Source: a virus
Reading direction: 5' to 3' (one strand)
DNA: 64,000 bases
Virus record (IMG/VR): IMGVR_UViG_3300031712_000003
Span: 1-64,000 of that record
The translations under genes and the position numbers were made by a program. The notes under the pieces are model-generated. The model had not been told where the DNA came from and searched no databases. It was given only the letters and a program-made list of their open reading frames with translations. Position 1 is the first letter of the stretch. Every line of letters starts with the position of its first letter. Below, piece after piece: positions 36,371 to 54,530 of the stretch.

Positions 36371-39300
36371 TTAGTACTCCTCGATGTGGGCAGGGGTCCA
36401 GATCTCTGTAGTGGCAGCTTCTTTAGCCACTTCCTCGTCGTGATCCGCACCAGGCTTAGGTACATTCTCTCCAGGGGTCAACCCAGCCTGAAAAACGAAC
36501 GGGCTGATACCCTTACTCATCGGACAACTCACTTCGAGGTTTACTGCAGCCCGAGTGAGAGCCACATAGGCCAAGTTCCTCTCTGCCTTCATTCGAGCCA
36601 TCTCGACAACTGGGTCAGGTGGAGGCTCATCAGCCTTGGGCTTGCGTTCCATAGGGAAGATACCCTTGGGCATGAGGACCGTCACGTTCTTCCACTGAGC
36701 TCCCTTGACCGCATGCACTGTCGACAAGGAGATAGCCGGTGGCTTGTCCCTTCGAACTGCTGGGTCGAGCTTCTGCTGCTCCTTTTCCCACTTGTCTGGG
36801 TCAATTCGGAGAGTCTCAGCGATCTTCGTATAACGCCCAAGTTTTTGAACAAATCCTTGTGCAACAGCTGGGTCTGTTACATTCGCCTGGTCATGCTCAT
36901 TGGGTTTCGAGAGAGCAAAGAGGAACTGGACCGCCCCAAGACCCTTAACCGATTGAGGCTTGGTCTTGGTAGGCATGACACCCTCCTCTCCAAGCTCAGG
37001 GGGGATTGATTCCTTGGTCTCGTCTTCATCCTCATCATCCTCGTCTTCGGAGTAGACAGCCACATTATTCGTGATCTGCTCTCGAAGGGAGGTGGTCTCA
37101 GTTACCGTTCTTCTAGCTGTAGCGTCCCAGCTCGTGACTGTGGACTTCATGTTGTCGAGTAGGTAATTGAGCAGCTCATCAGTGGGCTTGTTCTCCCCAA
37201 TGAAGGATCGAAGGTCCCGGACATTAGCCGCCATCCCTCGAAGGTTGTCGGCCAGCTCATCTACTCTCTTACCAAACATCCACTCGCCCTTGCTTGTATC
37301 GCCGCGAGCAAAGGCAATAATCTTGAGACGATAGGGCAGTTTCAGCTTTTCGGCCAGCATACGAACGTACCTGGACTCCAAGAGGATGTCAGGTCGAACC
37401 GACTTAACATCCACTCGCTCCCGGCGAGCTACATCGTTGAGGGCTTCATCAACCGCCCTCTCGACGTCATCAGGCCCCATGAATAGAGCACGGTCAGGCT
37501 TCATGAGGGCAGCTACGAGGGACTTCTTCATCTTCTCGTAGTCGTTACCAGCAGCTAGGTCGATGAACCCAAGTACTGCGCGAGACTCGGGGGCCTCCAA
37601 GAAGCCCTTCCCTCCCCGTCGAACATAGGGTATCTCATTGATAATACAGGCAGTTTCGAAGTCATTCAACTCGGCGTTGGTGCGTGCGAGTACCGCGAAG
37701 TTCTCAGCGTCCGCCCCCTCATCAATGTCCCTTCGGTACCGCCCAACAGTCTCAATAGCGGCTTCGACGTTGTCTTCAGGAGTAGATACTTGAATCGAGG
37801 CTCGACCTCGGTCCTTGCGCGGGTCCGCCATCGAGGCAACCACGGTCCCATCACTGTCATGGGCGATGAGTGTGTTGGCCGCTTCCACAATCTCGGGCTG
37901 ACATCGATAGTTGGTGCGGATGTTCCGCGTTGTCCAACCATCATCAAGTGCTTGGAACAACTCAGGTTTTGCACCACGAAACTGGTAGATGGCTTGCTTC
38001 TCGTCACCCACCATCCAGATCGACTTGTCCTTTGAGTCTTGAGTAATCTGCTCAGACATCATGGCGAAGATTTGATGCTGGACTGTATTGAGGTCCTGAG
38101 CTTCATCGACCAAGATGTGGTCATACATGCCCTGGATAGCGGCCTTGGCTTTCGGATCTCTTACTAGGATGTCACGGAGGACCTTCAACATATCGTCGAG
38201 ATCCCCGAGTCTTTCTCCACCCTTACGGTTCCGGCTCATGAAGCTCTCGAATGGCTTCGAGGGGTTACATGGAGGGCGCCACCCGGGGATGTCCCCTTTG
38301 AGACCCAAATACATCTCGTACCAGATTACCGCCTGAGCTTCCGCTTTGGAGGTTACCGAAGCCTTAGCTTGTTCGAGGGTGACGTCGTTACCGCGCCACG
38401 CATTGAGGAGCAGGTTTGCCTTCTTGGCCTTGGGGGGCTCAGTCACCCAAGACCGCGGGTATCCATACTTCGAGACCAAGGAGTCTGGTCCGCACTCGGT
38501 CCACATGTTGCGGATAGCTTGGGACAGAGAAGCTGGGTTGATACTTTTCACTCCCCTGCCAGTCGGAGCAATGAGCCTGGGCGCGCGGAGCATATCTTGC
38601 TCCTCCCGTGTCCCAAAGCCTGGGGTGTCTCGGGTCCCGACGATCAGTTTCGCGAATAGCGAATGCATCGTCCCGACCTGGATTCCAGAAGCCCCCTCAC
38701 CGACCTTCTTAGCGATCTTGTCCTTCAGCTCATTGGCCGCTTTACGGTTGAAGGAACATGCCATGACCCGCGCCGGGTTAACCCGACCATCCTTCACAAG
38801 GAAGTCAATACGCGCGACCAGGGTTGTGGACTTACCGGAGCCAGCCCCGGCAGCCACCCGTACTCGACCCCCGGTGAGGGCTGCAGCTCGTTGCTCATCA
38901 TCCAGCTCTCGGAGTGGAATGGGAATATTCTGGATGAGGTTGGGGTCGCTGATAGCCGCCACGGCTGCCGCTGTCGCAATACCAACCACCTTGGACTCTT
39001 TTGGAGGATCATCCGGTATATTGTTGACTTCCAAGGACTTCCGAGCCGCATCTGTAGCATTGGCTTGGACTTTGGTGAGCATCAAGGATCTAGATTGTTG
39101 TTCGTCCCGACTTGTTTGCGCACCCTGCTCGGCAACCTCTTTAATACTAGTAGTATTGATCTCATTCGAGGCAGCAACTTCATTTGAAGCGCTATCTACT
39201 GGGGTTGGAGCATACTCACCTGACCCCGCCTGCTTAGCAGCAGCGTCGATCCAACTCCGCATCCGGAGGTTGATCAACGGGATAGCATCGAAGATATCAA

Positions 39301-39760
39301 GAGCCTTGTCTGCATCCTCTAACATTGAGGCAGAGATTGCAGCCTTGACCTGTCGAACATACTTGGGGTTATCCAAGATACCCTTGACAGTCTGGGCCCC
39401 ACCTCTAGTGAGAAGCGTTCGGAACTGTAGCGCGCGTCGAGCTGCCCCCGCGGGGTTGAACACCTTCAAGTTCAGAGCCCGGCGCAACATGGTCTTCTGA
39501 GACTCTTTGGATAGGTGTGTCTCCAGATACTCTCGATACTGATCGATCTGAGTATCTGCCATTCGAAGGATCTTGAGACCCCGTCTGATTAGGGCGTCTT
39601 CAACATCATCAACCCCAGAAGTTTCCTCAGCGTACCGTTCATAGGTATCAAGAGCCAGGAGAAAAATGATGTATTCAGCTACCTGAAACTCACCGATCTC
39701 CAGGTCATCATCATTCTCGGGCTCATTGATTGCTACCTTTTTGGTGATCGGGATTAGCAT
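36371..39760 (-). CDS. UvrD/Rep-like superfamily 1 DNA helicase with long N-terminal extension
   Basis: A 1129-residue protein with all main SF1A motifs: Q motif LDDEQRAAALTGG, Walker A AAGAGSGKST (about 303-312), Ia VMACSFNRKAANELKDKI, II LVDEAQDLN, III MVGDEKQAIYQFRGA, IV IRTNYRCQPEIVEAAN, V STVHAVKGAQWKNVTVL and VI RNLAYVALTRAAVNLEV. Such enzymes unwind DNA 3' to 5' using ATP. About 285 residues precede the Q motif, helical and then disordered, with no known domain. An acidic run (EDEDDEDEDE) interrupts the 2B region. No nuclease domain is visible. It lies between sheath and tube, an unusual place for a replication or repair enzyme. I prefer the ATG at 39760 over a GTG at 39775. Confidence 0.9.
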   Translation of the reverse strand: MLIPITKKVAINEPENDDDLEIGEFQVAEYIIFLLALDTYERYAEETSGVDDVEDALIRRGLKILRMADTQIDQYREYLETHLSKESQKTMLRRALNLKVFNPAGAARRALQFRTLLTRGGAQTVKGILDNPKYVRQVKAAISASMLEDADKALDIFDAIPLINLRMRSWIDAAAKQAGSGEYAPTPVDSASNEVAASNEINTTSIKEVAEQGAQTSRDEQQSRSLMLTKVQANATDAARKSLEVNNIPDDPPKESKVVGIATAAAVAAISDPNLIQNIPIPLRELDDEQRAAALTGGRVRVAAGAGSGKSTTLVARIDFLVKDGRVNPARVMACSFNRKAANELKDKIAKKVGEGASGIQVGTMHSLFAKLIVGTRDTPGFGTREEQDMLRAPRLIAPTGRGVKSINPASLSQAIRNMWTECGPDSLVSKYGYPRSWVTEPPKAKKANLLLNAWRGNDVTLEQAKASVTSKAEAQAVIWYEMYLGLKGDIPGWRPPCNPSKPFESFMSRNRKGGERLGDLDDMLKVLRDILVRDPKAKAAIQGMYDHILVDEAQDLNTVQHQIFAMMSEQITQDSKDKSIWMVGDEKQAIYQFRGAKPELFQALDDGWTTRNIRTNYRCQPEIVEAANTLIAHDSDGTVVASMADPRKDRGRASIQVSTPEDNVEAAIETVGRYRRDIDEGADAENFAVLARTNAELNDFETACIINEIPYVRRGGKGFLEAPESRAVLGFIDLAAGNDYEKMKKSLVAALMKPDRALFMGPDDVERAVDEALNDVARRERVDVKSVRPDILLESRYVRMLAEKLKLPYRLKIIAFARGDTSKGEWMFGKRVDELADNLRGMAANVRDLRSFIGENKPTDELLNYLLDNMKSTVTSWDATARRTVTETTSLREQITNNVAVYSEDEDDEDEDETKESIPPELGEEGVMPTKTKPQSVKGLGAVQFLFALSKPNEHDQANVTDPAVAQGFVQKLGRYTKIAETLRIDPDKWEKEQQKLDPAVRRDKPPAISLSTVHAVKGAQWKNVTVLMPKGIFPMERKPKADEPPPDPVVEMARMKAERNLAYVALTRAAVNLEVSCPMSKGISPFVFQAGLTPGENVPKPGADHDEEVAKEAATTEIWTPAHIEEY

Positions 39761-39838
39761 GCCTTCAATTCCCACGTTATGGACGTACTACAACCAAAGC
39801 CAACCCACAAGGGATTTATGCTAGAGTCCGCATACGAC

Positions 39839-39888: not shown

Positions 39889-42800
39889 TCAGATCCTGGC
39901 GCGCAGGTTGAAGGTCAAGACGAGGTACAACAGCGGGAATATCGGCTGGTAGTACGCTTCGGCGTTCAGAGTAGTTGGGTCATTAGGGTCGACCGTGGCC
40001 GAGATGCCAGTGAAGGCAGCCACAATCTCCTGTTGAATCAACTGCTTGAACAACGAAGTCATGCTGACTTCGACTTCATTGGTCCTGCTGGCGAGGAACT
40101 TCGTACCTACGAAGGCATCGAGGACCGACCTCGAACTAATCGAAACGTAGTCGGCGATCTGGGTCACTGTCGGCAACCGAGTCAGGACCGACGTCATGTT
40201 GGTCGTGAGACCCTGACGAACCCTGATGATAGGCTGCAGATCTTCTAGAACCGTGATACCAGCGACGGCCGTTTGATTGGCCTCCACCGGGTCCATGATC
40301 CTCGGGATTCGAGTGAACCCTTGGAGCTGCCTATGAGTGTACGGGGTTGCAACGTCAACCGCCGGTGAGCAGACCGCACCAGCCATGGCCGCCGCGTAGA
40401 AGGTCCCGTCAACCAAGGACTCGAAGGTGTTGCCCAACTCATCCGTGAAGGTAACCACAGAGGAGTCTGGGTAGAAAGCCACGATTCTTGAACTGAAGAG
40501 GCCCTTTGCGACTGACTGAGCTGTGGTCGGAGAGGTCCCACTTGCAAAGCCAATCATACCCATTCGCTCGGACTGGTTGCGGATATTCGACATTACCTCA
40601 CAATGCTGAGTCAAAGCCGAGTAAACCGCAGTGTCAGTGCTCAGGGGTACGAGGACATCGGGCTTGACATTCCCTGGTAGGGGAGTTGCCAGACCTTGGA
40701 TAGCCGTGATGAACGAGGAGGCTGCCGCTTGGTTCGTGTTCGGAACCTTTAGCACCTGGGTGATTCCCACCAAGACTGCACCGTTGAGGATCGCCAAGTA
40801 CGCGCCCAAGACTACTCGGTTCTCAGCATTGAGTTGACCGTAGTTTGCTTCGATGGTCTTGAACGTGGTGAAGATCCGCGTCGAGAAGTCCTGCTTCATG
40901 TAGCGGTACGAGATGTAGTAGTAGTCACCGTTCTTCGGCTCGAGACCAGACGGGTTGAAGGTCTGGACATTTGCCGTGTCATTCACCCCAACATTCACAG
41001 TATTGGTGACGATAGTCTCCAAACCAGGGATGTAGTAGTACGGGATTCCAGGGTTAACCTGGAAGGTCTGGGAGATGACGAGGGTGAAAGTACCACCACT
41101 TGCATACTGAGTAGTGGACGGGAGGATGCTGAACCTCAAACCAGTACGGGAATCCGTATAGGTCTGTCCTGGGAACCCAGTACCTGACGAACCATTTGGA
41201 TTCGAGGAGGTGACTACGAAGTTGTTGGTAGCACTCTCCCCATTGTCGCCAGAGGTCCCTGGTACAATCCCAGTCCCAGTTGTCGTGTTGAACGCCGACT
41301 GAGTACCCCCAACGAACCCAACGCTCGATGCCGTTGCGCCAGTAGTGAGTGACTCAATAGTCAGATAGGTCTGACTATTGATGACATCCGGATAGGCGAC
41401 ACAACCTGTCGTATTTGGAGAAGGAGCTACGTGACCAACAGTTCCTGGAGTTCCCCAGTTTGTAACGGCAAACCCCGTTGTATCCATGAGGCGATCAACC
41501 ACCTCTTGAACACTCACCAAGGTCTGACTAGCAAACTCACCCTCGGTGAACCCGAGAAGCTCATTGGCTGTACCGTCCTGAATCAACAAGGTAGATTGAG
41601 GAGAGCCGTCTACACTGGTGATTCTGAGCTTGTTCAAGTTCCCCAGAGTTCCGACCGAAGCCGTACCCTGAGAGCCAATGACCAAGTTGACAGCCGTTAC
41701 AACCGCGCTAGTTGCTACGGAAGCACCGTTTGGTAGAGTGACCTGAAAGTCAACTCCGTTGACTCGAATCTTGAAGATATCGTTCAGGCCAGCAGTGATA
41801 TTGAAGGTTCCAGGAACTGAACCAATCAATGTTGCCGGCTTATCGAGGGCACCTACAGTACCAGCAGCAGTCTGGAACGTAGTGAACCCAAGGAGGGTCT
41901 CAGCAGTACCCTGATTGATGGTGACGTTACTGTTATGGTCGAGACCACCTGGGACCGAAGCCGGAGTTGAGTACCCTCGGATTACGAAGAAGGTGCTCGT
42001 CGAGCCTGGCCCTGGGATGGCCGTGAACAGGTCGTTGGCTGCTGTACTTGAGAAAGCCACATTAGCATCAATGACTGCATTGACTGCTACTGCTACTGCC
42101 GCCGGAGTAATCACACCAGCAGGAAGTGAAACCGTGAGGGCCACTCCGTCGATAGTGAGATTAAAGGTGGCTCCACCTACTGGGATAGTAATGTTACCAC
42201 CAGTTAGTGGTACAGCCTGACTAACCAAGTAAGCTCGGGTAGACCCTGACAACAGGGTTGAAATCGTAGTTCCGTTTACAGAGGTCCTCCAAGTATCGGA
42301 GGCGCCCACGTAGAAGGAATAGGGTTGAGCACCGAGGTTCGTGTAGACCGCATTCCGGGCCACTGCTTGACCGAAGGTGACCGTGACAGTCTCGCTCACG
42401 GGGGTTCCACCGACATGCATGGCGTCCGGGATCTGCTCAACACCACGAGGCCACTGGACGATCTGAGTCAGACCTCCACCCTTGGTACCAAAGCGAATCT
42501 GGTACAGGTTCTTGTTGAACAAGGACGAGAAGACCTCGTACTGACCAACCCCAAGAGGTCCTGGGACCTTGTTGGTCAGGATGTAGGTGTCGTCCGTGAT
42601 CCTGTTGTAGTAGAAGGTAGCGAAGACAGTCCAGTCCGGAGGAAGAGCATTCTTGAGAGTGATTTTCCGGTTGGGCCCGTCCACAGAGAGGACGGTAGCC
42701 GCTGGACGCCCTAGAGCGTCTTCGAGGTTCCGACCAACCCTAGCCACAATAAGGTCTGGACGATTCGTAATGAGGTCCTGACGGTTGTTGGCTACTGAGC

Positions 42801-44202
42801 TGTATAGGGACTGCCCGAGAACACTGTCACGCCCGTTACCCGTCGTTGGAACTTCGGGGAGGATGAACACGGTGTTGCTGACAGAGGCCGGAATGACCGT
42901 GGTGTCAACGAACGCAGCACACTCGACCAAGTACAGCTTGTCATCGACCAAGGTCGGAACAATCTGAGAGGCATCGAGGGGTTCAGTTCCAGGGGTGTTG
43001 AGAGTCGATGATACCGAGTAGCTGGTCCCCCAGTGGACGATTGAGACGTCCGGAGAGGGGTTAACAACTACGAAGTCCTGATTCTGGATGTAATCCGATC
43101 GACCCGAGCTAATCCCACAACGAATGACATTCGTTACTAAGGTATTTGGCAAGTAGTCAAACGTATCCTGCCAGGTATTCGCCCAGTAGTTGACTGTAAC
43201 CGTGGAGCCTGGAGGGGGCGCCAAGGCCAGAGTCACAATACCATTGGTCCCGTCTACTGCAGTCGGGATGACCTGGACGTTGTTGACCTTGACCACAACC
43301 TTGGAAGTGTCGGTAGTGGTGATGCCACCGGAGGTCCCGTCCACGATCGGACGCTGGAACACACGGAATTGAGTGTTACCGCTCGCCGTTTGACCCGAGG
43401 ATAGTCCGAGGATACCATTAGCTGTGCCGGCACCGATAAATACCGAGGAAGCCGCCGTAAGAGTGAGGTGGTTGAGACCTTCATTGTCAGCAAAAACTGA
43501 CGTTGCAAGCCCTGAGATAGCGGCTGCATCGATCTGAGTCTTCAGGCTCAAAGCCGTTGAGGACCCAGGAACGAACGTCACTGTCTGCTCAGACCCGTTA
43601 TTGGGCGTTACCTTCAGTGTATCATTGACACCCGCCACGATGACGAAGGGCTCGAACCCTGGAGTCGTGATTGATGAAGCAATCACTGAAACCTGAGCTG
43701 ATACATCGTCCGTGAAGGCAGTATCGCCTCGGTGGAAGTAGTAAGTGACGCGGACTGTGTCCGTCGGTTGAGGTGGTACTTGCAGAGTGACCTCACCCAA
43801 GGATCCGAGCACACTACCAACAGCCACAGGGCTGCCATTCACGGTCACAGTAACAGACCGTGTATCATTGGTAACTCGACCAAAACCTTGGCCATCTACC
43901 AACGGGAAGTTGCGGACTTGGAAGGTAACCCGAGACCCGTCATTCGCCCCAAGAATGGGGTTCGATGGGTTCGTGTTATCCACGATCCAGCGCAGGGTTA
44001 CGTCTTCATTGACGATTTGCTCATCAAGAGTAGACGAAGAACCACGCACCATTTCGAGATCATCTTGCTCCAGCTCTTCCTGACCGACACCGATAATGAA
44101 CGGTATCCGCAGGCCAGCAATGAGCGAAGCAACATTGGCCTCGGTCAGTGTGCGGGAGTATACACCAGGTGGAACGTACGTTGCGAAGGGTCCAAAAGAC
44201 AT
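39889..44202 (-). CDS. Tail sheath protein, giant form with inserted domains
   Basis: A 1437-residue sheath; T4 gp18 has 659. The N-terminus has the sheath signature PFATYVPPGVYSRTLTEAN. The last 330 residues show the conserved C-terminal fold: KPDVLVPLSTDTAVYSALTQ, MAGAVCSPAVDVATPYTH, VLEDLQPIIRVRQGLTTN and YQPIFPLLYLVLTFNLRARI. Between them lie large beta-rich insertions, including three modules with a G-x-NDxxKIxVNG core and a terminal LLGF or LGLS, and two with VNGxxV...PPxxTVxVxYY. These probably decorate the outside of the tail. I chose the ATG at 44202 with AGGAG six bases upstream, instead of a TTG at 44220. It contracts to drive the tube into the host. Confidence 0.92.
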   Translation of the reverse strand: MSFGPFATYVPPGVYSRTLTEANVASLIAGLRIPFIIGVGQEELEQDDLEMVRGSSSTLDEQIVNEDVTLRWIVDNTNPSNPILGANDGSRVTFQVRNFPLVDGQGFGRVTNDTRSVTVTVNGSPVAVGSVLGSLGEVTLQVPPQPTDTVRVTYYFHRGDTAFTDDVSAQVSVIASSITTPGFEPFVIVAGVNDTLKVTPNNGSEQTVTFVPGSSTALSLKTQIDAAAISGLATSVFADNEGLNHLTLTAASSVFIGAGTANGILGLSSGQTASGNTQFRVFQRPIVDGTSGGITTTDTSKVVVKVNNVQVIPTAVDGTNGIVTLALAPPPGSTVTVNYWANTWQDTFDYLPNTLVTNVIRCGISSGRSDYIQNQDFVVVNPSPDVSIVHWGTSYSVSSTLNTPGTEPLDASQIVPTLVDDKLYLVECAAFVDTTVIPASVSNTVFILPEVPTTGNGRDSVLGQSLYSSVANNRQDLITNRPDLIVARVGRNLEDALGRPAATVLSVDGPNRKITLKNALPPDWTVFATFYYNRITDDTYILTNKVPGPLGVGQYEVFSSLFNKNLYQIRFGTKGGGLTQIVQWPRGVEQIPDAMHVGGTPVSETVTVTFGQAVARNAVYTNLGAQPYSFYVGASDTWRTSVNGTTISTLLSGSTRAYLVSQAVPLTGGNITIPVGGATFNLTIDGVALTVSLPAGVITPAAVAVAVNAVIDANVAFSSTAANDLFTAIPGPGSTSTFFVIRGYSTPASVPGGLDHNSNVTINQGTAETLLGFTTFQTAAGTVGALDKPATLIGSVPGTFNITAGLNDIFKIRVNGVDFQVTLPNGASVATSAVVTAVNLVIGSQGTASVGTLGNLNKLRITSVDGSPQSTLLIQDGTANELLGFTEGEFASQTLVSVQEVVDRLMDTTGFAVTNWGTPGTVGHVAPSPNTTGCVAYPDVINSQTYLTIESLTTGATASSVGFVGGTQSAFNTTTGTGIVPGTSGDNGESATNNFVVTSSNPNGSSGTGFPGQTYTDSRTGLRFSILPSTTQYASGGTFTLVISQTFQVNPGIPYYYIPGLETIVTNTVNVGVNDTANVQTFNPSGLEPKNGDYYYISYRYMKQDFSTRIFTTFKTIEANYGQLNAENRVVLGAYLAILNGAVLVGITQVLKVPNTNQAAASSFITAIQGLATPLPGNVKPDVLVPLSTDTAVYSALTQHCEVMSNIRNQSERMGMIGFASGTSPTTAQSVAKGLFSSRIVAFYPDSSVVTFTDELGNTFESLVDGTFYAAAMAGAVCSPAVDVATPYTHRQLQGFTRIPRIMDPVEANQTAVAGITVLEDLQPIIRVRQGLTTNMTSVLTRLPTVTQIADYVSISSRSVLDAFVGTKFLASRTNEVEVSMTSLFKQLIQQEIVAAFTGISATVDPNDPTTLNAEAYYQPIFPLLYLVLTFNLRARI

Positions 44203-44307
44203 CCGACTCTCCTGACTCAATTGGTCTGAACAGGTCTGATTCGATTTGATCTTGGAAGTCTGTCAAGACTACCTAATAGATAGAACAGCGATTCGATCTG
44301 AGTCTGG

Positions 44308-44373: not shown

Positions 44374-44811
44374 TTATTGGGTTGGCTTTACTTGTGAACC
44401 CCGCTCGACTCCCACAGCTAGATCTACTAGTTTTGCGCGGGCATTCCTTTGAGGTTGCCCCATTGCTGCGTATTCTGTGTATCCTTCACCATCAAGGCGT
44501 TCAAGGGCTGGACTACCTCCAACCTCTCGTACTTGCTTCTTGACTTTATCCCGCTCTCTGTAGGTGGCCCATCGAGACTCAGCACTCCTACCAACTATCT
44601 TGTCAGCAGTTGGATAGTCCTGATCATGAACCCCTGAGTTAGCCGGCGCAGCTCCACCAGCCTTGAACCCAAACCCAAAGGCTGTCCCATCGAACAACCG
44701 AGGTGCTTCCTCCTTACAGGAAGGGCATGGGTGTGTCGGGTTGTCCCCGAGCTTCAATGTGCGTTCAAACCTAGTCGAGCATTGTGCGCACTCGAAGGTA
44801 TAGCGAGGCAT
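44374..44811 (-). CDS. FmdB-like zinc-ribbon protein
   Basis: A 145-residue protein beginning MPRYTFECAQCSTRFERTL with a second pair CPSC near residue 34, the zinc-ribbon layout of FmdB-type small regulators. The rest is polar, with an ESRWATYRERDKVKKQV helix, and likely flexible. It lies between the putative tail terminator and the sheath gene. Zinc binding is well supported; its job in the virion or in regulation is unknown. A second FmdB-like protein is encoded near 58.3 kb. Confidence 0.75.
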   Translation of the reverse strand: MPRYTFECAQCSTRFERTLKLGDNPTHPCPSCKEEAPRLFDGTAFGFGFKAGGAAPANSGVHDQDYPTADKIVGRSAESRWATYRERDKVKKQVREVGGSPALERLDGEGYTEYAAMGQPQRNARAKLVDLAVGVERGSQVKPTQ

Positions 44812-44823
44812 AGAGTACCCCTT

Positions 44824-45990
44824 TCATCCGATCCGTTCGTAATTTGCATTTCGCCCGACTATTACAGGCGTAGTGTTGAAGAAAAGTGAAGCTTGTGAAA
44901 GAGCTTGGATACTAGAAGCCCCGTTGGGCTTCGTGTAAGCCGACGCCCTACTAATTGTGTAGGGAAGTGGAAGGTGCATCTCCCAATCAGATTGAATTGC
45001 AACACTCATAGAATAGTTGTAGTAGAAGAGCTCCGCAGCCTCATCGTAGACTTCCTCGGACTCACCGCCCATTGAAGTATCGGTCAACTCAATCCCTTCA
45101 GAGGATAGGTTGCTGCGCTTCTCAGCCCAGAGATACATGAAGACCAGATCCGCAATCTCTTCCATCTGAATAGGATCCCTAGAGATCACATCCAAATCAA
45201 AGGTAGCGTCGAACCGACCACCGAAGGCTTGCGCAGTCTCCACTCGGTCTGAGTACACGACAACCGCTTGCTTGTCCCCGGGCTTACCCCTCTTGCCAAA
45301 GGCGAGTATCACCCCAGGGAGGGTCTTCCAGTCTGCTGTATTCCACGACCACTTGATGGGTCCTATCGAAGGAGCGGCGTATCGATAATCAGCCGTAATC
45401 AGAGCCCCAGGGAAGAACCCCGTGTGAAAGGTGATCTCCTGAGCTTCGTAGTCAACCGTGTAGTCAGTACCCTCTACTAATAGGAGGTTCCGGTTGGTCC
45501 ACATACGAAGTGTCCCCTTGACCGGTTGATTCTGGATAGTAGCCGAAACCACTGGCCCTGATTGAGCCTGGATGATGGGTTCGTCGGTGATTGTCAGGAG
45601 TGGATCAATGATGAACTCCCCGAACTCTCCTGGAACAGTAGGAGCCGAGAGACACTCTATATAGTAGACCCCAGCGGGGATCGGCATCGAATCCCCGGAC
45701 TCCTTGAGCACAATCAAGTCCTCTTTCACCCACTCAAGTAGGTAGGCTGGTTCATTGTAGAAGGCCAGCATGACATGGCTCTCTACAGTACCAAGGAAGT
45801 TCTGAGGTGACACTTGGACCTTGTTCGCCGACGACCCCTTCACTACGATGCCATACTGGGGCCGCTCCTCGAATGCGAACTTGTTTTGCACGAAAGGTAC
45901 GATCTTCTCATAAACTGGATGTCTGGAGAAGCTGTCCTGCAACTCAAGTATGAGCCGTCTCTTCAGCGAGGATATTAGGTGAAAGTACAT
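44824..45990 (-). CDS. Probable tail terminator or neck protein
   Basis: A 388-residue protein. It has KFAFEERPQYGIVVKG near the N-terminus, a beta-rich insert with VEGTDYTVDYEAQEITFHTG (like modules in the sheath), then FDATFDLDVISRDPIQMEEI and a helix-strand C-terminus (LFYYNYSMSVAIQSDWEMHL). The last part resembles tail terminators, and the gene lies two positions before the sheath, where terminators are often found. It starts in a TAATG overlap with the actin-like gene. The family was not proved. Confidence 0.65.
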   Translation of the reverse strand: MYFHLISSLKRRLILELQDSFSRHPVYEKIVPFVQNKFAFEERPQYGIVVKGSSANKVQVSPQNFLGTVESHVMLAFYNEPAYLLEWVKEDLIVLKESGDSMPIPAGVYYIECLSAPTVPGEFGEFIIDPLLTITDEPIIQAQSGPVVSATIQNQPVKGTLRMWTNRNLLLVEGTDYTVDYEAQEITFHTGFFPGALITADYRYAAPSIGPIKWSWNTADWKTLPGVILAFGKRGKPGDKQAVVVYSDRVETAQAFGGRFDATFDLDVISRDPIQMEEIADLVFMYLWAEKRSNLSSEGIELTDTSMGGESEEVYDEAAELFYYNYSMSVAIQSDWEMHLPLPYTISRASAYTKPNGASSIQALSQASLFFNTTPVIVGRNANYERIG

Positions 45991-47006
45991 TATTCTCGGT
46001 GCTCGTGCTCAGCTAGCAGCAACAACCCATCTGCCACCGCGTCCAAAGGTCGTTCAACCCTGAATACCTTGGAGATAGGAATCGGGAAGCCCCTCCTCCT
46101 GATAGTCTCGAATTCCTCATTGAAGACATCCATGAATCCCTTAGCCAGTGAGGTGCCGCCAGAGACAACCAAGGGTAGCTCATCCAAGTGATCGTTTTGT
46201 TCCTGCTTGACCCTCTCTGATATCTTCTCCAAGCAATGACGAACCAGAGTTCTAACATAGAGGGCTATAGCTTCAATGTCTGGTTTACCACTAGGCGGAG
46301 AGGCGAGGTTGAACTCCCCTTTCTCCTTTAGGGTGCACATTCTAGCCGCTGTCGAGCCAACCGCCTTTGCTGCATGAGCATCAATCCAATCCCCACCACC
46401 TCTAGCGATGGAGAAGTTCAAACCCATAACTCCAAAGTTAGCTAAAGCTACGTTGCACAACCCTGATCCGAACGATAGGGCTAACCCAGAGAACTCTGTG
46501 TCAAAACACTGAGAGTAGATGATGGCCAAGGCCTCGTTCGTAGGTTGAGCGATATACCCATAATTGGTGATGATCCTACTGAATACGTCCTTGTGGTACT
46601 TTACATCCTGGTCGGGTAAGTCAATCGGATCAGCTGGAACACTATAGAAACAGTGCTCACCCTTGCACGATGGTTCACCCAGTACGTTACTAATCAAGTG
46701 ATTAAGTACGTGTTGAGCTTTTAGCGCCCCCGGAGAAATCAGACCCTTGGAGAGTGGACGCTTGACCTCTTGCTTGAACAAGTTAGCCATTTGGAATGAC
46801 TTGTCACCGACCACTACAACTTCGCTTTGCTCTTTGAACTCAACAAAGTTGATGTTACTCATCTTCAATGTTTTAACGTTCTCAGCGTCTATCTCGATAT
46901 AGGCGTCGGTGGCTCTCTTGTGGGATATCTCATCCTCTTTGTACCTAGCGGCCACAAAGTTCATGGTACCCACATCTAGACCAACACCTGGACTCTTGTT
47001 TGCCAT
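45990..47006 (-). CDS. Actin-like ATPase (ParM/MreB/Alp superfamily)
   Basis: A 338-residue protein with the nucleotide-binding motifs of the actin/Hsp70 fold. Phosphate 1 is GLDVGTMNFVAAR (residues about 9-21). The connecting part has YSVPADPIDLPDQDVKYHKD and GYIAQPTNEALAIIYSQ, typical of ParM/MreB. Phosphate 2 is SFGSGLCNVALANFG, followed by GGGDWIDAHAAK, and the adenosine motif is LVVSGGTSLAKGF. Such proteins form filaments that move or position DNA or particles. I use the ATG at 47006 with AAGGA eight bases upstream; two earlier in-frame ATGs lack spacing. It lies in a tail operon, after the Dps-like gene and overlapping the putative terminator gene. Confidence 0.85.
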   Translation of the reverse strand: MANKSPGVGLDVGTMNFVAARYKEDEISHKRATDAYIEIDAENVKTLKMSNINFVEFKEQSEVVVVGDKSFQMANLFKQEVKRPLSKGLISPGALKAQHVLNHLISNVLGEPSCKGEHCFYSVPADPIDLPDQDVKYHKDVFSRIITNYGYIAQPTNEALAIIYSQCFDTEFSGLALSFGSGLCNVALANFGVMGLNFSIARGGGDWIDAHAAKAVGSTAARMCTLKEKGEFNLASPPSGKPDIEAIALYVRTLVRHCLEKISERVKQEQNDHLDELPLVVSGGTSLAKGFMDVFNEEFETIRRRGFPIPISKVFRVERPLDAVADGLLLLAEHEHRE

Positions 47007-47049
47007 TTTCATATTCCTTTTCATCTGTTATGATTTTGATTTGGGTTGA

Positions 47050-47751
47050 TTAGGCTAGTCTCTGCCTGAGTAGGTAGAGGTGACTCTCGTGCTTGTCTTC
47101 GATGCCGGCCATCATATTGTCGACGCCCCGCGATAGCTCACCCTTCTCCTTCATCACCTTGGCGACCTCAGACATGCACTCCACGAACTGGGTCTCGGCT
47201 AGTAGGCTAACTTCAAGGTAGGACTTCGGGTTCTCACTCTCACCGGACACAATCCCATCACCACAGTACTTCTTGATGATGTACGCAATGATCCTGGCTT
47301 GAAGCCCGGGGTGCATCTTGTCGAGTGGGGCACCAGTACCAACAGCCTTCTCAGCCACACCATCGATCTCGTCAGACGTCTCTTCATACAGACGCTGGAA
47401 TAGGAGATGGTCAGCGTAGTAAGTCTCACCATAGGTCAACCAGTGATGGCTCTGATGGATATCTGCCAATGCCCTCAGAAAGACAAGGACAGTAGGTAGT
47501 CCGTAACCAAGACCATTGGCCATCTTGCTTGCAGCTGCCACGAGGGTCCTCTGCGAAGCCTGCTTGTCCATTCGAACCTTCATCCCAGGGAGATAAGGAG
47601 GACCGTGGAAAAACGGATTGTAGGATGACGGATCTTGCCAGATCACTGATGTTGCATCATCAGGTGGGGTTCCTAAGTTACTAACCCCAGGGTGATCAGG
47701 TGCCGGAGAGAATGACGGGTCTTTAGAAGCAGTTTTCCAACGTGGGTCCAT
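47050..47751 (-). CDS. Dps-like ferritin-fold protein
   Basis: A 233-residue protein. After a Pro-rich N-terminal arm of about 60 residues it shows the Dps pattern: FLRALADIHQSHHWLTYGET, YYADHLLFQRLYEE, then SDEIDGVAEKAVG. The His, His, Asp and Glu positions that form the Dps ferroxidase centre are all present. Two further helices follow (LLAETQFVECMSEVAKVM and HESHLYLLRQRL). Dps proteins store iron, remove peroxide and coat DNA as dodecamers. I chose the ATG at 47751, which overlaps the previous TGA as TGATG and has a strong GGAGG site, not the GTG or ATG inside the previous gene. The role in a phage tail operon is unknown. Confidence 0.78.
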   Translation of the reverse strand: MDPRWKTASKDPSFSPAPDHPGVSNLGTPPDDATSVIWQDPSSYNPFFHGPPYLPGMKVRMDKQASQRTLVAAASKMANGLGYGLPTVLVFLRALADIHQSHHWLTYGETYYADHLLFQRLYEETSDEIDGVAEKAVGTGAPLDKMHPGLQARIIAYIIKKYCGDGIVSGESENPKSYLEVSLLAETQFVECMSEVAKVMKEKGELSRGVDNMMAGIEDKHESHLYLLRQRLA

Positions 47752-48890
47752 CACGCCCTCCCGAGTCTCTGTTCGAGTTGTCTGGCTATTAGAGTGCACT
47801 CCTCAGCCAGATGTAGGATCTCAGGCTGAAGGTAGGTCATTACAAAGGTGGGATCCTCTGTGCGACCAACGCCAACTCTTTTCACGCCATCTGAGTGCTT
47901 TTTGCACTCTTTTAGGGCTTCAAGGATCTTTTCGTATTGATCCGTAATGATCTTGATTGCTGGGTGTTTCTCACCCTTATCCATGAACTCAGCCGCCATC
48001 TCCCACTGCTCTTGTGAGCTAGCGTTCTTCTTGAACCAGATATGAGGAGCAAGAGTATTAGCAGGGATCGACTTCTTCATGTATCGAAGAATCTCCTCGT
48101 CATTCTTCACCTGAGGTCGGCTATCATCAACCACGATCTTGTCGCCTTCCCACTTGGCGAAGTTACTACCTCCAAGACCGTTCTTTTCGAGTTTCTTACC
48201 ATCAGTGGTGAGCATTCCACCATGAGCTGGCTTTCCCTCGTAGAAGGCGTCAACTACCTTTTTCTCAGGGGCAGTTAGAGCCGCCACCTTGATCTCAGCT
48301 GTCTTGGGTTCAGCCTTTGGCTCAGCTTTCTTTGGTACGTTGTAGTTGATCTCGAACTGTTTTGTATCCTTCAAACGCTCTTCAAGCTCAAACGGACCCA
48401 TACCCTCTTCCTGAAGAGTAGTGGCGAATGCAGGGTCATAGCCCTTGACCGCCAACATGGCCTCCATCTCTGCAAGGAACTTTGCACTAGGGTCAGGAGC
48501 GGTCTCTAGCTTCAATTCCTTGCCAACCTCATTCAAGGTGAACCGCTGAGGTTTGGCCGGGAAAGTCTTACCAGTGAGTGGAGACTTGACTGTACCCACG
48601 AGACGCTGATCACAGTAGAAGCTTCCGCCATCAGGGTCCGCATAGTGCCAAAGAGACCCTTTGATCTTGGCATCACCCGCGCGAAGCTCCTTGGAGATAT
48701 CCGTTAGAGATTGACGAGTCGGCTTTGCTGGGAAACTTCTTCCGGTGAATGGTGAGCGAACCGTACCTAGGCGACGCTCTGACAGGTAGAAAACGGTCCC
48801 TTCAGGGTCCAAGTACTTCCAAAGTACAGCGGCTGCTGTCTTCTCAACTATGGACCCTACTCGGTTCAGAAGTCTGTCTTTGGCGCTCAT
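47751..48890 (-). CDS. Protein with two N-terminal 50-residue repeats, unknown function
   Basis: A 379-residue protein, not recognised. Residues about 22-72 and 81-131 are tandem copies of one unit: LWKYLDPEGTVFYLSERRLG then SPFTGRSFPAKP, and LWHYADPDGGSFYCDQRLVG then SPLTGKTFPAKP. The middle (about 195-215) is a Lys/Pro/Glu linker. The C-terminus is helical (ILEALKECKKHSDGVK). ATG at 48890 has GGAG seven bases upstream. It is translationally coupled to the Dps-like gene by a TGATG overlap, so the two products may act together. Confidence 0.75.
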   Translation of the reverse strand: MSAKDRLLNRVGSIVEKTAAAVLWKYLDPEGTVFYLSERRLGTVRSPFTGRSFPAKPTRQSLTDISKELRAGDAKIKGSLWHYADPDGGSFYCDQRLVGTVKSPLTGKTFPAKPQRFTLNEVGKELKLETAPDPSAKFLAEMEAMLAVKGYDPAFATTLQEEGMGPFELEERLKDTKQFEINYNVPKKAEPKAEPKTAEIKVAALTAPEKKVVDAFYEGKPAHGGMLTTDGKKLEKNGLGGSNFAKWEGDKIVVDDSRPQVKNDEEILRYMKKSIPANTLAPHIWFKKNASSQEQWEMAAEFMDKGEKHPAIKIITDQYEKILEALKECKKHSDGVKRVGVGRTEDPTFVMTYLQPEILHLAEECTLIARQLEQRLGRA

Positions 48891-48924
48891 GGTCAATCTC
48901 CGTAACTGTCAGATCCTAAGTACT

Positions 48925-49584
48925 TTAACGACTCTTACCCTTCCGTAACTCCCTGAGTGCTTTGCTCGCTACTGCTGCCGAGTTACCTTCAACTCTATCC
49001 TCCTTTACAGTCAACTTCTTTGGAGTGTCGAAGGTTGGAACGAAGTTCGGAACATCATCCTCCACAGAGATCCCAGCAGACTTAAACTCCTTGCCTGAAG
49101 CTTGAACCACTACCTGGGCCGGCATGCTGTCGAGTTTTTCCAGAATGGTGTTTAGCTTCGAGTCCTCCCCTTTGAACTTCCCGAGTTCGATTCGAAGCTG
49201 ACTACACTCAGCAAGCAACTGTCCGCACTCGGTATTGGCGGACTCCAACTCCCCCTTTAACCTTTGAATCTCCAGATTGGCTACTCTCAACTCAGATTGG
49301 ACTTGCTGGTGATTGTACCGAAGCTCCAAAAGCTCAGAGTGGGCCACTACTGGAGTTAACTCAACCGGTTCACTTCGAGGTTGACCCGAGAGGGCATTAT
49401 CGAGTCTAGGGTTGGTGCCAAGCTCAATGATTCGATTCTGGGACATCAACTTACCCAGATCTCGTGAATCACATGCTAAGTTACCAGGAATCGTAACTGG
49501 AACACCCCGTGGTACCCTGAAGCGTATGTCTTCAATAACGAGATCTTCCCTAACTGATTGAACAATCATATCACCTTGGCTCAT
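48925..49584 (-). CDS. Coiled-coil structural or neck-region protein
   Basis: A 219-residue protein. The N-terminus (about 1-60) is beta-rich (VREDLVIEDIRFRVPRGVPV). Residues about 85-145 are a clear coiled coil (ELRVANLEIQRLKGELESAN). The C-terminus is charged and flexible, ending in KALRELRKGKSR. It starts in an ATGA overlap with the preceding HK97 gp10-like gene. No family is recognised. Confidence 0.72.
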   Translation of the reverse strand: MSQGDMIVQSVREDLVIEDIRFRVPRGVPVTIPGNLACDSRDLGKLMSQNRIIELGTNPRLDNALSGQPRSEPVELTPVVAHSELLELRYNHQQVQSELRVANLEIQRLKGELESANTECGQLLAECSQLRIELGKFKGEDSKLNTILEKLDSMPAQVVVQASGKEFKSAGISVEDDVPNFVPTFDTPKKLTVKEDRVEGNSAAVASKALRELRKGKSR

Positions 49585-50087
49585 GACATTCTGATCACTT
49601 TCTTAGCTGCATTTTTAGCGACCATCGTTACCTCAGAGACGATGGCCTTTCTGATTTGGGTTCTGGCTTCCTTCTTTGCCTTCTCAATGAAGTCGTAAGG
49701 TGGGCGTCCTGGGTGAACCCACTTTCCGTCCTTCATCGACTTGATGGTCGCCGACCTGAAGATAAGTTTCCCCTCCTCAGTAATAATAGGAATAGGAGCT
49801 CGAGACTTCGTCAACCACCTCATCTGCCCCTTGCGCTGCCCTCGCATCAAATAGGTAAACGCTGGGTGCTTGGAGTAGAGGGTGAGTGACGAAGGACCAA
49901 CCTCGACCATGAGCGACTTTGCCAATGCCTTCTTGGCACGCTCCGAGAAAGTGGACTGGACCAGCTTATCCCGTAACCTACGGAGAACACTGTATTTTAC
50001 CCGATTCAGGGCATTCTCTGGGCTTACCCCCAAACCTCGAAGAAGGGGCTTACCGTAGAGTGAGGTTAGTTTGTAATCTTGTGGCAT
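49581..50087 (-). CDS. HK97 gp10-like head-tail joining or tail completion protein
   Basis: A 168-residue basic protein. It shows LMVEVGPSSLTLYSKHPAF, followed by RAPIPIITEEGKLIFRSA, then WVHPGRPPYDFIEKAKKEAR and a final helix. This order of a beta sheet, a Pro loop and a long C-terminal helix fits the HK97 gp10 family that closes the neck or tail end. The location between neck-like and tail genes agrees. It starts seven bases past the upstream stop, with no strong ribosome binding site. Confidence 0.65.
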   Translation of the reverse strand: MPQDYKLTSLYGKPLLRGLGVSPENALNRVKYSVLRRLRDKLVQSTFSERAKKALAKSLMVEVGPSSLTLYSKHPAFTYLMRGQRKGQMRWLTKSRAPIPIITEEGKLIFRSATIKSMKDGKWVHPGRPPYDFIEKAKKEARTQIRKAIVSEVTMVAKNAAKKVIRMS

Positions 50088-50093
50088 TTTCTA

Positions 50094-51443
50094 TCAGTAG
50101 TTGGAGTTTTTCCAAGCCAGTGTTCGACCTCGATACTGGCGCTCTTCTGGGATATTCGGATTGTCTGTAATCTCAGAAGAAGCTTCAAATTCAGGCCCAC
50201 TCGGAGCAAACTGAGTAGCTGAAAACCTAATAGGATCCCCAACCGGTACCCGATAACGAATGTCCTTCTCGTCAAAGTAGTTGATTGTGAAGTGCTGCTG
50301 TAGGATAGTACCACGATTAGTTGGTCTTCTCACAGCTCCAAGGCTGTAGCGGTCACCATCAATCTTCAGAATGAAGTCTCGGTGGCTGAGAAGCGGTTGG
50401 GGGCCAGTCCATACCTCGTATGTATGGATGAGGTTCCGACCTGACTCCGCTTGAGCAACCTTCTTGTCTGAGTCATCAGGAGCGATGATGATCTCGTAAG
50501 GCCCTTCGTACCCACCAATGATCCCTGTCCCATAGCACTTGAGGCAGTCACCCAATGGCTGCTTGTGAATCTGGTCGTAGCAAGGGCACTGAATCCCAAC
50601 AACCTTCCGAAGGTAGACTCGGGCGCGCTCCCCACCTTGTTCGAGTATCCACCGGTTGCGCCTGATGGCCTCCCTCCAGTAGTTGTCGAGCTTTTCAATC
50701 TCGATAGTGTTAGTGGACGCCGCGTTGCCTATAGGGGTCTCAATCAGGCTATCAGGGGTAGCCTCAGACCAGTTACCTGTGACAGGGTAGCCAACTGTTG
50801 AGACTCGGTAGAATATGCGCTGGGCCAGATCAGTACGAACCAGATCCCTTGTGTACCGGTAGGTGCACGTTACTCGACTCGTGGTACTTGGAACTACAGG
50901 GATGATGTTCTTCTGAAGGGCAGTATCCATGTAGACGTTAGCGTCAATCTCAACTTCCCCTGTCTGCCCATTCACCCAGAATACGTTAGCCTCAACCCCA
51001 TCGACGTATACTCGAACATCGTGCGGGTTGTTGGTCGGTAATCCTCGAGCAGCCTCGGCAACGATAGGGTAGTTTCGAGTCTTGAATACGTAACGAGGCC
51101 CGTCCATGCCAGTAGAAGCAGTCCCAAATAAGGTGAACTGCTCAGTGACATCTTCCTCTATGATCAGCTCGTTGTCAGTCTGATCCCTCCAAAACGTTGA
51201 CCCAACTGGTAGTTCAGTGATCCTTCGATAGGGGCCAAACTCAGAGTCAAAGCTACGATAAACGTTGACCCCAAGGATTTTGAAGCGACTATTCAGAACA
51301 AGAATAGAGGGGTCATCCCATTGAAGGTTGATGACCCCCTTTACATCGCTCGACATGAACAGGTTCAACGGCGGAGCGGGCCAAGGAATCTTGGTCAGCT
51401 CCGTAAGTCCCGGCGTCCTGTCACGATTGCTCACATCCGCCAT
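50094..51443 (-). CDS. Neck or virion structural protein with CPC/CxxC zinc-type motif
   Basis: A 449-residue protein. An N-terminal fibronectin-like domain (about 20-100: VKGINLQW-type strand, ILGVNVYRSFDSEFGPYRRI) is followed by a beta module (RVYVDGVEANVFWVNGQTGE) like those in the sheath. The middle has QCPCYDQIHKQPLGDCLKCY, a likely metal site. The C-terminus is mixed. Its place before the gp10-like gene suggests a neck component. The exact family was not identified. Confidence 0.7.
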   Translation of the reverse strand: MADVSNRDRTPGLTELTKIPWPAPPLNLFMSSDVKGVINLQWDDPSILVLNSRFKILGVNVYRSFDSEFGPYRRITELPVGSTFWRDQTDNELIIEEDVTEQFTLFGTASTGMDGPRYVFKTRNYPIVAEAARGLPTNNPHDVRVYVDGVEANVFWVNGQTGEVEIDANVYMDTALQKNIIPVVPSTTSRVTCTYRYTRDLVRTDLAQRIFYRVSTVGYPVTGNWSEATPDSLIETPIGNAASTNTIEIEKLDNYWREAIRRNRWILEQGGERARVYLRKVVGIQCPCYDQIHKQPLGDCLKCYGTGIIGGYEGPYEIIIAPDDSDKKVAQAESGRNLIHTYEVWTGPQPLLSHRDFILKIDGDRYSLGAVRRPTNRGTILQQHFTINYFDEKDIRYRVPVGDPIRFSATQFAPSGPEFEASSEITDNPNIPEERQYRGRTLAWKNSNY

Positions 51444-54119: not shown

Positions 54120-54530
54120 TTAGCTCTCGCTGGCGACTACTGCATTAACAGCGAAAGAAACCTGATCACCTATACCGACGATCTTGGGGACCGCCAGAGT
54201 ACCTTGGTAGAGGATGGTAGCAGAAGGAGACCCACCATTTTGGGCATCCACGATACCAGCCCAACCAACGGTACCCCAAGCGTTAATAGCAACAGCAAAT
54301 GTTATTGCCGCAGAATTACTAACGCTACCACCGGCGATTGTACCCCAGGTCACAGGCTGGCGCACATACTCGGCCGGGGTTACCTCTCCAGTAAAGATAC
54401 CAGCCGAGGTGGGATCCGACGTGAAGAGTGCAAGGTATACTGTAGCGGGCCAAGCATAGGCGAACTGAGCATTGTTCTTCAGAACCCTATCGAGGACCGA
54501 GTTTGCCAACGAGGTGGTCTTTGCAGCCAT
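54120..54530 (-). CDS. Gp80-like phage structural protein (tail fibre/decoration family)
   Basis: A 136-residue protein with the layout of the mycobacteriophage L5 Gp80-type family: TVYLALFTSDPTSAGIFTGE, then EYVRQPVTWGT, ITFAVAINAWGTVGWAGIVD and a closing GDQVSFAVNAVV. Members are annotated as tail fibre or head decoration proteins; the true role is unclear. TTAGGAGAC stands eight bases before the ATG. The 103-base gap upstream of it shows no other gene. Confidence 0.72.
   Translation of the reverse strand: MAAKTTSLANSVLDRVLKNNAQFAYAWPATVYLALFTSDPTSAGIFTGEVTPAEYVRQPVTWGTIAGGSVSNSAAITFAVAINAWGTVGWAGIVDAQNGGSPSATILYQGTLAVPKIVGIGDQVSFAVNAVVASES

Follow-up and report, generated by a model that had tools for sequence, protein, structure and literature searches.

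The virus analysed here is one of hundreds of large phages whose contractile-tail gene block encodes a Volactin-family protein, which profile and fold comparisons support as a filament-type actin, and a predicted adaptor (c4) in the same operon. The presence of both in such a block suggests an actin filament handling tails or virions rather than DNA, and we consider it fairly probable, though well short of secure, that a late-made volactin filament with c4 as its adaptor captures necks, tails or virions. The window (the whole 64,000-nucleotide stretch that was analysed) comes from a virus record of 88,451 bases.

The actin gene, its family and its ATP site

The actin gene occupies the following position in the window:

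45990..47006, minus strand, volactin (actin-fold protein), 338 aa from the ATG at 47006

An in-frame upstream ATG at 47024 is also open (45990..47024, minus strand, 344 aa), and residue numbers are given here on the 344-aa reading. A Shine-Dalgarno-like AAAGGA lies 8 nt ahead of the ATG at 47006, and the protein is therefore probably 338 aa long, supporting the end coordinate of the initial annotation. That the gene is real is borne out by its full-length open reading frame, by its match to Pfam Volactin (PF25216; 215 bits versus a cut-off of 35, E = 2.4e-63, profile positions 3-319 of 321) and by a dN/dS of approximately 0.07 against the 82%-identical relative L002. Selection on the gene is estimated to be strongly purifying (dN/dS 0.066 and 0.090). 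The actin-fold motifs read from the sequence in the initial annotation are likewise present (GLDVGTMN, connect-1 NEA, LSFGSGLCN, GGGDWID and SGGTS), the Pfam match placing them far beyond chance.

The Volactin family is named after an actin of Haloferax volcanii (VolA, HVO_2015) that forms dynamic filaments in vivo (PMC10869688), and this protein and the phage protein belong to the same Pfam family over their full length. Dynamic filaments have been shown in vivo only for this H. volcanii member (PMC10869688), for which two haloarchaeal plasmid copies (L097 and L098; 447 and 466 bits against the Volactin profile) stand in throughout our comparisons. The motifs GxDxGTxN, SxGxGxxN, GDWID and GGTS show little or no variation among the volactins of phages, haloarchaea and bacteria.

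A single-sequence search of the PDB with volactin returned nothing useful and a profile was needed. When a profile of 65 relatives was compared with solved structures, the matches were MamK (8e-9) and MreB (0.003), and the AlphaFold model (pLDDT 93.3, pTM 0.91) had MamK (filament entry, TM 0.70/0.73) and MreB as its top PDB folds, making MamK the nearest solved structure by both measures. EutJ and BiP ranked below MamK and MreB in the profile and PDB fold matches, although viral structure matches of the model include Hsp70 homologues, and non-filament ASKHA proteins (PilM, sugar kinase, Hsp70) were not the best match by fold or profile. In a Pfam scan with E up to 10, only Volactin and MreB_Mbl were matched, the latter below its cut-off (16.3 bits versus 27), and the curated MamK cut-off was far from reached (17.1 bits versus 400). 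The ParM-like identity suggested by the initial annotation thus gives way to Volactin, ParM being absent from that scan, whereas the structural comparison it had called for favours filament actins over non-filament ASKHA families. The evidence accordingly favours a filament-type actin over a sugar kinase or PilM for the window protein, which would be expected to polymerise. PHROGs contained no convincing family for phage volactin, which makes it invisible to usual phage annotation.

The nucleotide pocket is marked by three motifs in which the following residues are invariant across the 65 relatives:

46959..46982, minus strand, phosphate-1 motif GLDVGTMN, residues 15-22 (G15, D17, G19, T20 and N22 invariant)
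46452..46475, minus strand, phosphate-2 motif SFGSGLCN, residues 184-191 (S184, G186, G188 and N191 invariant)
46149..46163, minus strand, adenosine motif SGGTS, residues 288-292 (G289, G290 and T291 invariant)

In addition, E164, G211, D212 and D215 are invariant. The phosphate-2 motif predicted in the initial annotation is therefore present but not canonical, as Ser184 replaces the catalytic-site Asp family-wide, aligning with Asp161 of MamK, a residue needed for filament dynamics and whose change to Ala stops them (PMC5059902). The same Ser is found in haloarchaeal, Planctomycetota and Magnetococcia volactins, the two haloarchaeal members sharing the SxGxGxxN motif of the phage. Among 149 distinct volactins there was no exception in any complete copy; four fell outside the search pattern, of which two had Ser on inspection, one was truncated and one was split by an insert. 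The pocket is thus conserved but altered: the loss of ATP-site residues in relatives, which had been named as grounds for rejecting the actin reading, is not seen at the invariant positions, but the phosphate-2 Asp is Ser throughout. Active ATP hydrolysis by volactin is consequently not to be assumed and could be slow or absent. The split volactin, from a Neisseriaceae-labelled MAG (L096:5369-7507), is interrupted by a 371-aa intein-like insert that carries a LAGLIDADG-like motif (LIGYFLADG) and is placed exactly within the phosphate-2 loop.

A fixed place in the tail operon

The genes around volactin are listed below in window order:

39889..44220, minus strand, c3, large contractile-sheath-like protein, 1443 aa (weak Phage_sheath_1C match; sheath-like N-terminus PPGVYSRT)
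44374..44811, minus strand, c5, FmdB-type zinc-ribbon protein conserved in the operon (PF09723, E = 5.4e-10)
44824..45990, minus strand, c1, neck/tail-terminator-like protein, 388 aa (AlphaFold pLDDT 82)
45988..45992, minus strand, TAATG stop-start overlap of the volactin stop and c1 start (translational coupling)
47050..47799, minus strand, c10, ferritin/Dps-like protein (PF00210, E = 2.4e-4; phrog_3636, E = 9e-8)
47751..48896, minus strand, 381-aa protein found in close relatives only (6 loci), with no convincing family match in Pfam or PHROGs
48925..49584, minus strand, c4, predicted volactin adaptor, 219 aa (in 130/130 volactin-positive complete intervals)
49581..50087, minus strand, c6, tail-completion/Neck1-like protein (phrog_5, E = 9.5e-4), with a 4-nt overlap with the c4 start
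50094..51443, minus strand, c2, conserved virion structural protein and operon anchor (phrog_1004, E = 9.9e-6)

These neighbours agree with those named in the initial annotation, with a Dps-like gene upstream and the neck/terminator-like c1 directly downstream, followed by the zinc-ribbon and sheath-like genes. Among PDB folds, the c1 model came closest to the neck of phage 812 and to the neck entries for E217/Pa193 (gateway/collar), with low TM-scores. The sheath-like call for c3 draws on weak Phage_sheath_1C matches at the extreme C-terminus, found in 4 of 11 members (best E = 0.0029). The Dps-like c10 is confined to the sub-clade of the window (16 loci in the first set) and is a feature of that sub-clade outside the operon core. 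A 1134-aa UvrD-type helicase (window 36371-39775) lies directly 3′ of the sheath-like gene within the structural block. In the same block, a head protein is encoded upstream (window 54120-54530; phrog_240, E = 1.3e-21), which fits a continuous head-neck-tail gene block.

Phage actins were described as rare in the initial annotation, a view that does not hold for volactin, which has hundreds of viral and many bacterial members. A scan found relatives on 189 viral contigs of up to 529 kb, the best 80 of which were kept for analysis; these viral loci are metagenomic and mutually related. HMMs run on all ORFs gave a near-universal gene order of c2, c6 or c9 (tail-completion-like), c4, volactin, c1, c5 and c3. 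Volactin accompanies c1 in 278 loci, where it precedes the neck-like and sheath-like genes on a single strand, and the order c2-c4-volactin-c1-sheath on one strand was found in 214 of 237 five-gene loci, the exceptions inspected being due to c2 cross-matching c3. A gap of at most 60 bp between volactin and the neck-like gene was found in 85 of 214 loci.

Searches anchored on c1 were used so that loci were not chosen by the actin. Volactin was present in 76/79 loci in one such search and in 72/80 in a second from a distant c1, most volactin-less loci being contigs that end just upstream. The placement of the gene in a phage tail operon is thus fixed across a large phage group, and DNA segregation is accordingly much less likely than a late role linked to tails or virions. 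A misreading of the tail annotation was ruled out by the conservation around c1 and c2 anchors and by the neck folds, and hitch-hiking of gene order among close relatives by the distant-c1 searches and about five independent losses (see below). One volactin assigned to a Thermoplasmata MAG (L086:126-1142) sits within the tail-phage clade, and its contig is probably a misbinned phage fragment.

The predicted adaptor c4 and the natural losses of volactin

The c4 protein is conserved in its N-terminal part and at its C-terminus, and varies in its middle, which is coiled-coil or proline-rich. The C-terminus follows the pattern FIPSxIxP...V..A..ALKxLRK and lies in the window at:

48931..49107, minus strand, C-terminal motif region of c4, NFVPTF...AVASKALRELRKGK, residues 160-218, proposed volactin-binding peptide

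The motif ends no more than 15 residues from the C-terminus in 246 of 251 copies. Against an HMM of c4 C-termini, c4 scored 46 bits and the runner-up ORF of the window 4.5 bits. Two genes (c10 and the 381-aa protein) separate c4 from volactin in the window; in others the motif gene is directly upstream. The N-terminal domain of c4 had no known neck or tail match in Pfam, PHROGs, PDB sequences or annotated phages, so its cargo is suggested by location only, and c4 had no match to a DNA-binding family beyond generic coiled-coil matches.

The motif recurs beside volactins beyond the tail operon. When an HMM built from tail-phage c4 C-termini only was run on 1443 ORFs from 18 loci with non-tail-operon volactin, each of the ten best matches was the gene immediately upstream of volactin; they came from other phages, Planctomycetota, Magnetococcales and haloarchaea. 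In a profile comparison of c4 with the upstream protein of L085, the alignment covered only the motif tail (E = 4.4e-7). Across 50 cellular or non-tail loci, the upstream gene scored far higher than 994 background ORFs (p = 9e-14), and it also outscored the gene downstream (p = 5e-7); both p values ignore genome relatedness. Outside L084 and L085, single cellular motif scores are weak, and the case for a shared motif lies in position and repetition. The N-terminal parts of the motif genes differ: those of haloarchaea have three predicted membrane helices, those of most Magnetococcia one or two, and those of Planctomycetota coiled coils. Volactin itself is chromosomal in 58/149 Planctomycetota and 15/48 Magnetococcia genomes, some with at least two copies.

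In the haloarchaeal L097:2878-3834 and L098:2980-3903, volactin is preceded by a predicted membrane protein whose tail carries the motif. In the Magnetococcales L092:4142-6100 and L093:5057-7330, a second, larger protein further upstream is also motif-ended (GDISEAANKLRSM and TGDVAEAASKLKSM), which suggests several adaptors per volactin. The gene just upstream of volactin in two other Magnetococcales loci (L094 and L095) encodes a 202-aa SpoIIE/PP2C-type phosphatase-like protein without the motif, and on one phage contig (L083:1331-1936) the motif-bearing protein lies approximately 6 kb upstream of volactin and does not adjoin it.

The natural losses of volactin were traced in the 138 distinct loci for which the interval from c2 to c1 was complete. 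Volactin and c4 were both present in 130, neither in five and c4 alone in three, while volactin without c4 was found in none. The three c4-only loci (L315, L270 and L290) had kept the N-terminal domain of c4 and lost the tail motif, scoring 0.6, -1.3 and -1.2 bits; in 172 volactin-positive loci, the lowest score was 9.5 and the median 54. Loci without volactin have not retained the c4 motif. The whole records of eight volactin-less phages contained no volactin elsewhere. On the c1 tree, the losses required five changes, at least four of them forced, pointing to about five independent events, and as tail genes were kept, a tail can be built without volactin. On this sequence evidence, c4 is a probable volactin partner that may bind it directly.

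Possible roles of the tail-operon actin

In the explanation we favour, volactin would be made late, together with the tail proteins, and would work with c4 as a coiled-coil adaptor from its own operon. The C-terminal helix of c4 would bind volactin, as the tail of ParR binds ParM and that of arcadin-2 binds crenactin, both of these partner peptides entering the hydrophobic groove of the actin (PMC5173319), while its N-terminal domain would belong to the neck/tail module. The filaments would then capture necks, tails or finished virions, in order to move them or to collect them where they are assembled or stored. The initial annotation had proposed a late role, for example in virion movement, in the organisation of an assembly site or within the particle; the tail- or virion-linked part of this reading is strengthened by the fixed operon position, and the proposal as a whole is partly supported.

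Known systems resemble this arrangement in part. The haloarchaeal volactins have a motif-bearing gene directly upstream in two plasmids, but are cellular and linked to cell shape, with a partner carrying predicted membrane helices, whereas the phage partner is encoded in a tail operon and has a coiled coil. MamK serves to position intracellular cargo but has Asp161 where phage volactin has Ser184. Crenactin and arcadin-2 share with volactin and c4 a same-cluster partner with a core, a variable linker and a conserved actin-binding C-terminal helix (PMC5173319), although crenactin belongs to another actin family, arcadin-2 depolymerises it, and c4 is likened to arcadin-2 by layout only. The two-gene logic of actin and adaptor also applies to ParM and ParR, but phage volactin has neither a ParM match nor centromere-like repeats and no DNA-binding domain was found in c4. 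AlpC of prophage CGP3 is similarly a phage-encoded actin, but serves viral DNA replication and transport with a DNA adaptor, AlpA (PMC4446434, PMC5539076), unlike volactin, which is tied to tail genes. Jumbo phages such as PhiPA3, with the tubulin PhuZ, organise virions into bouquets inside the cell with tails inward (PMC9067925), a system that differs in being tubulin-based; tubulin (PF00091) was found in none of 17 records related to this phage, a search that a very divergent PhuZ could escape.

The losses and the operon position bear on several rival explanations. Volactin and c4 might be incorporated into the neck or tail of the particle, where they could serve, for instance, as a collar component or a switch that uses energy, with no intracellular cytoskeleton. 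The fixed slot between neck-like and sheath genes and the translational coupling to the neck-like gene suit such a part, but a core component would not readily be expected to disappear, as volactin and the c4 motif can, from phages that retain the tail genes, cellular volactins exist where there is no virion, and the haloarchaeal member forms intracellular filaments (PMC10869688), so that we consider this improbable, if the strongest of the rivals. Only slightly less probable is that c4 caps or depolymerises volactin in the manner of arcadin-2 and that the filament acts on the host, for instance on its shape, membrane or cytoskeleton, not on virions. The arcadin-2 C-terminal helix does depolymerise crenactin within the same core-linker-helix layout (PMC5173319), and H. 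volcanii volactin affects cell shape (PMC10869688); however, this would leave unexplained why volactin is so strictly linked to neck and tail genes and why the c4 N-terminal domain is retained after volactin loss.

Two further readings appear equally and distinctly unlikely. Segregation or positioning of phage DNA in the manner of ParM or AlpC, with c4 as DNA adaptor, would accord with the action of characterised phage actins on DNA (AlpC, PMC4446434) and with the groove-entering peptide that ParR too uses on ParM (PMC5173319). Against it, ParM was not matched in Pfam, tandem centromere-like repeats were looked for near volactin and none found, c4 matched no DNA-binding family beyond generic coiled coils, and volactin lies in the tail operon, away from replication genes. 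Similarly, a role as assembly chaperone for tail or neck, played by an ASKHA ATPase that forms no filaments and resembles Hsp70 without its substrate domain, would fit the Hsp70 homologues among the viral structure matches and the frequent occurrence of assembly factors in tail operons, but profiles and PDB folds favour MamK and MreB over chaperones and the characterised Volactin member polymerises in vivo (PMC10869688).

More broadly, and more tentatively than the capture of necks, tails or virions by volactin and c4, the phage may possess an actin cytoskeleton dedicated to tails or virions and founded on an unrecognised module of volactin and motif-bearing partner that is shared by archaea, bacteria and phages and has Ser in place of Asp. 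Within such a module, the FIPS...ALKxLRK peptide would be constant and the N-terminal part variable, comprising membrane helices in haloarchaea and Magnetococcia, a coiled coil in Planctomycetota and a neck/tail domain in phages. Our search of mostly non-subscription literature found no paper on phage volactins or the partner motif, and we claim no priority; a 2020 survey of huge phages mentions tubulin but not actin.

If this is true, the volactin module works with Ser where other actins need Asp for hydrolysis. The family-wide change makes the ATP hydrolysis mode of such an actin directly testable. The motif also provides a simple partner prediction for all volactins. For example, the filaments of H. 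volcanii volactin are reported to be attached to the membrane by their tips (PMC10869688), and the motif-tailed membrane protein encoded upstream in two other haloarchaea is a candidate for this attachment. In phages, how the position of the bouquet is designated was described as unknown in the study of PhiPA3 (PMC9067925), and a widespread tail-operon actin would be a candidate machine for gathering and positioning virions in cells infected by large phages.
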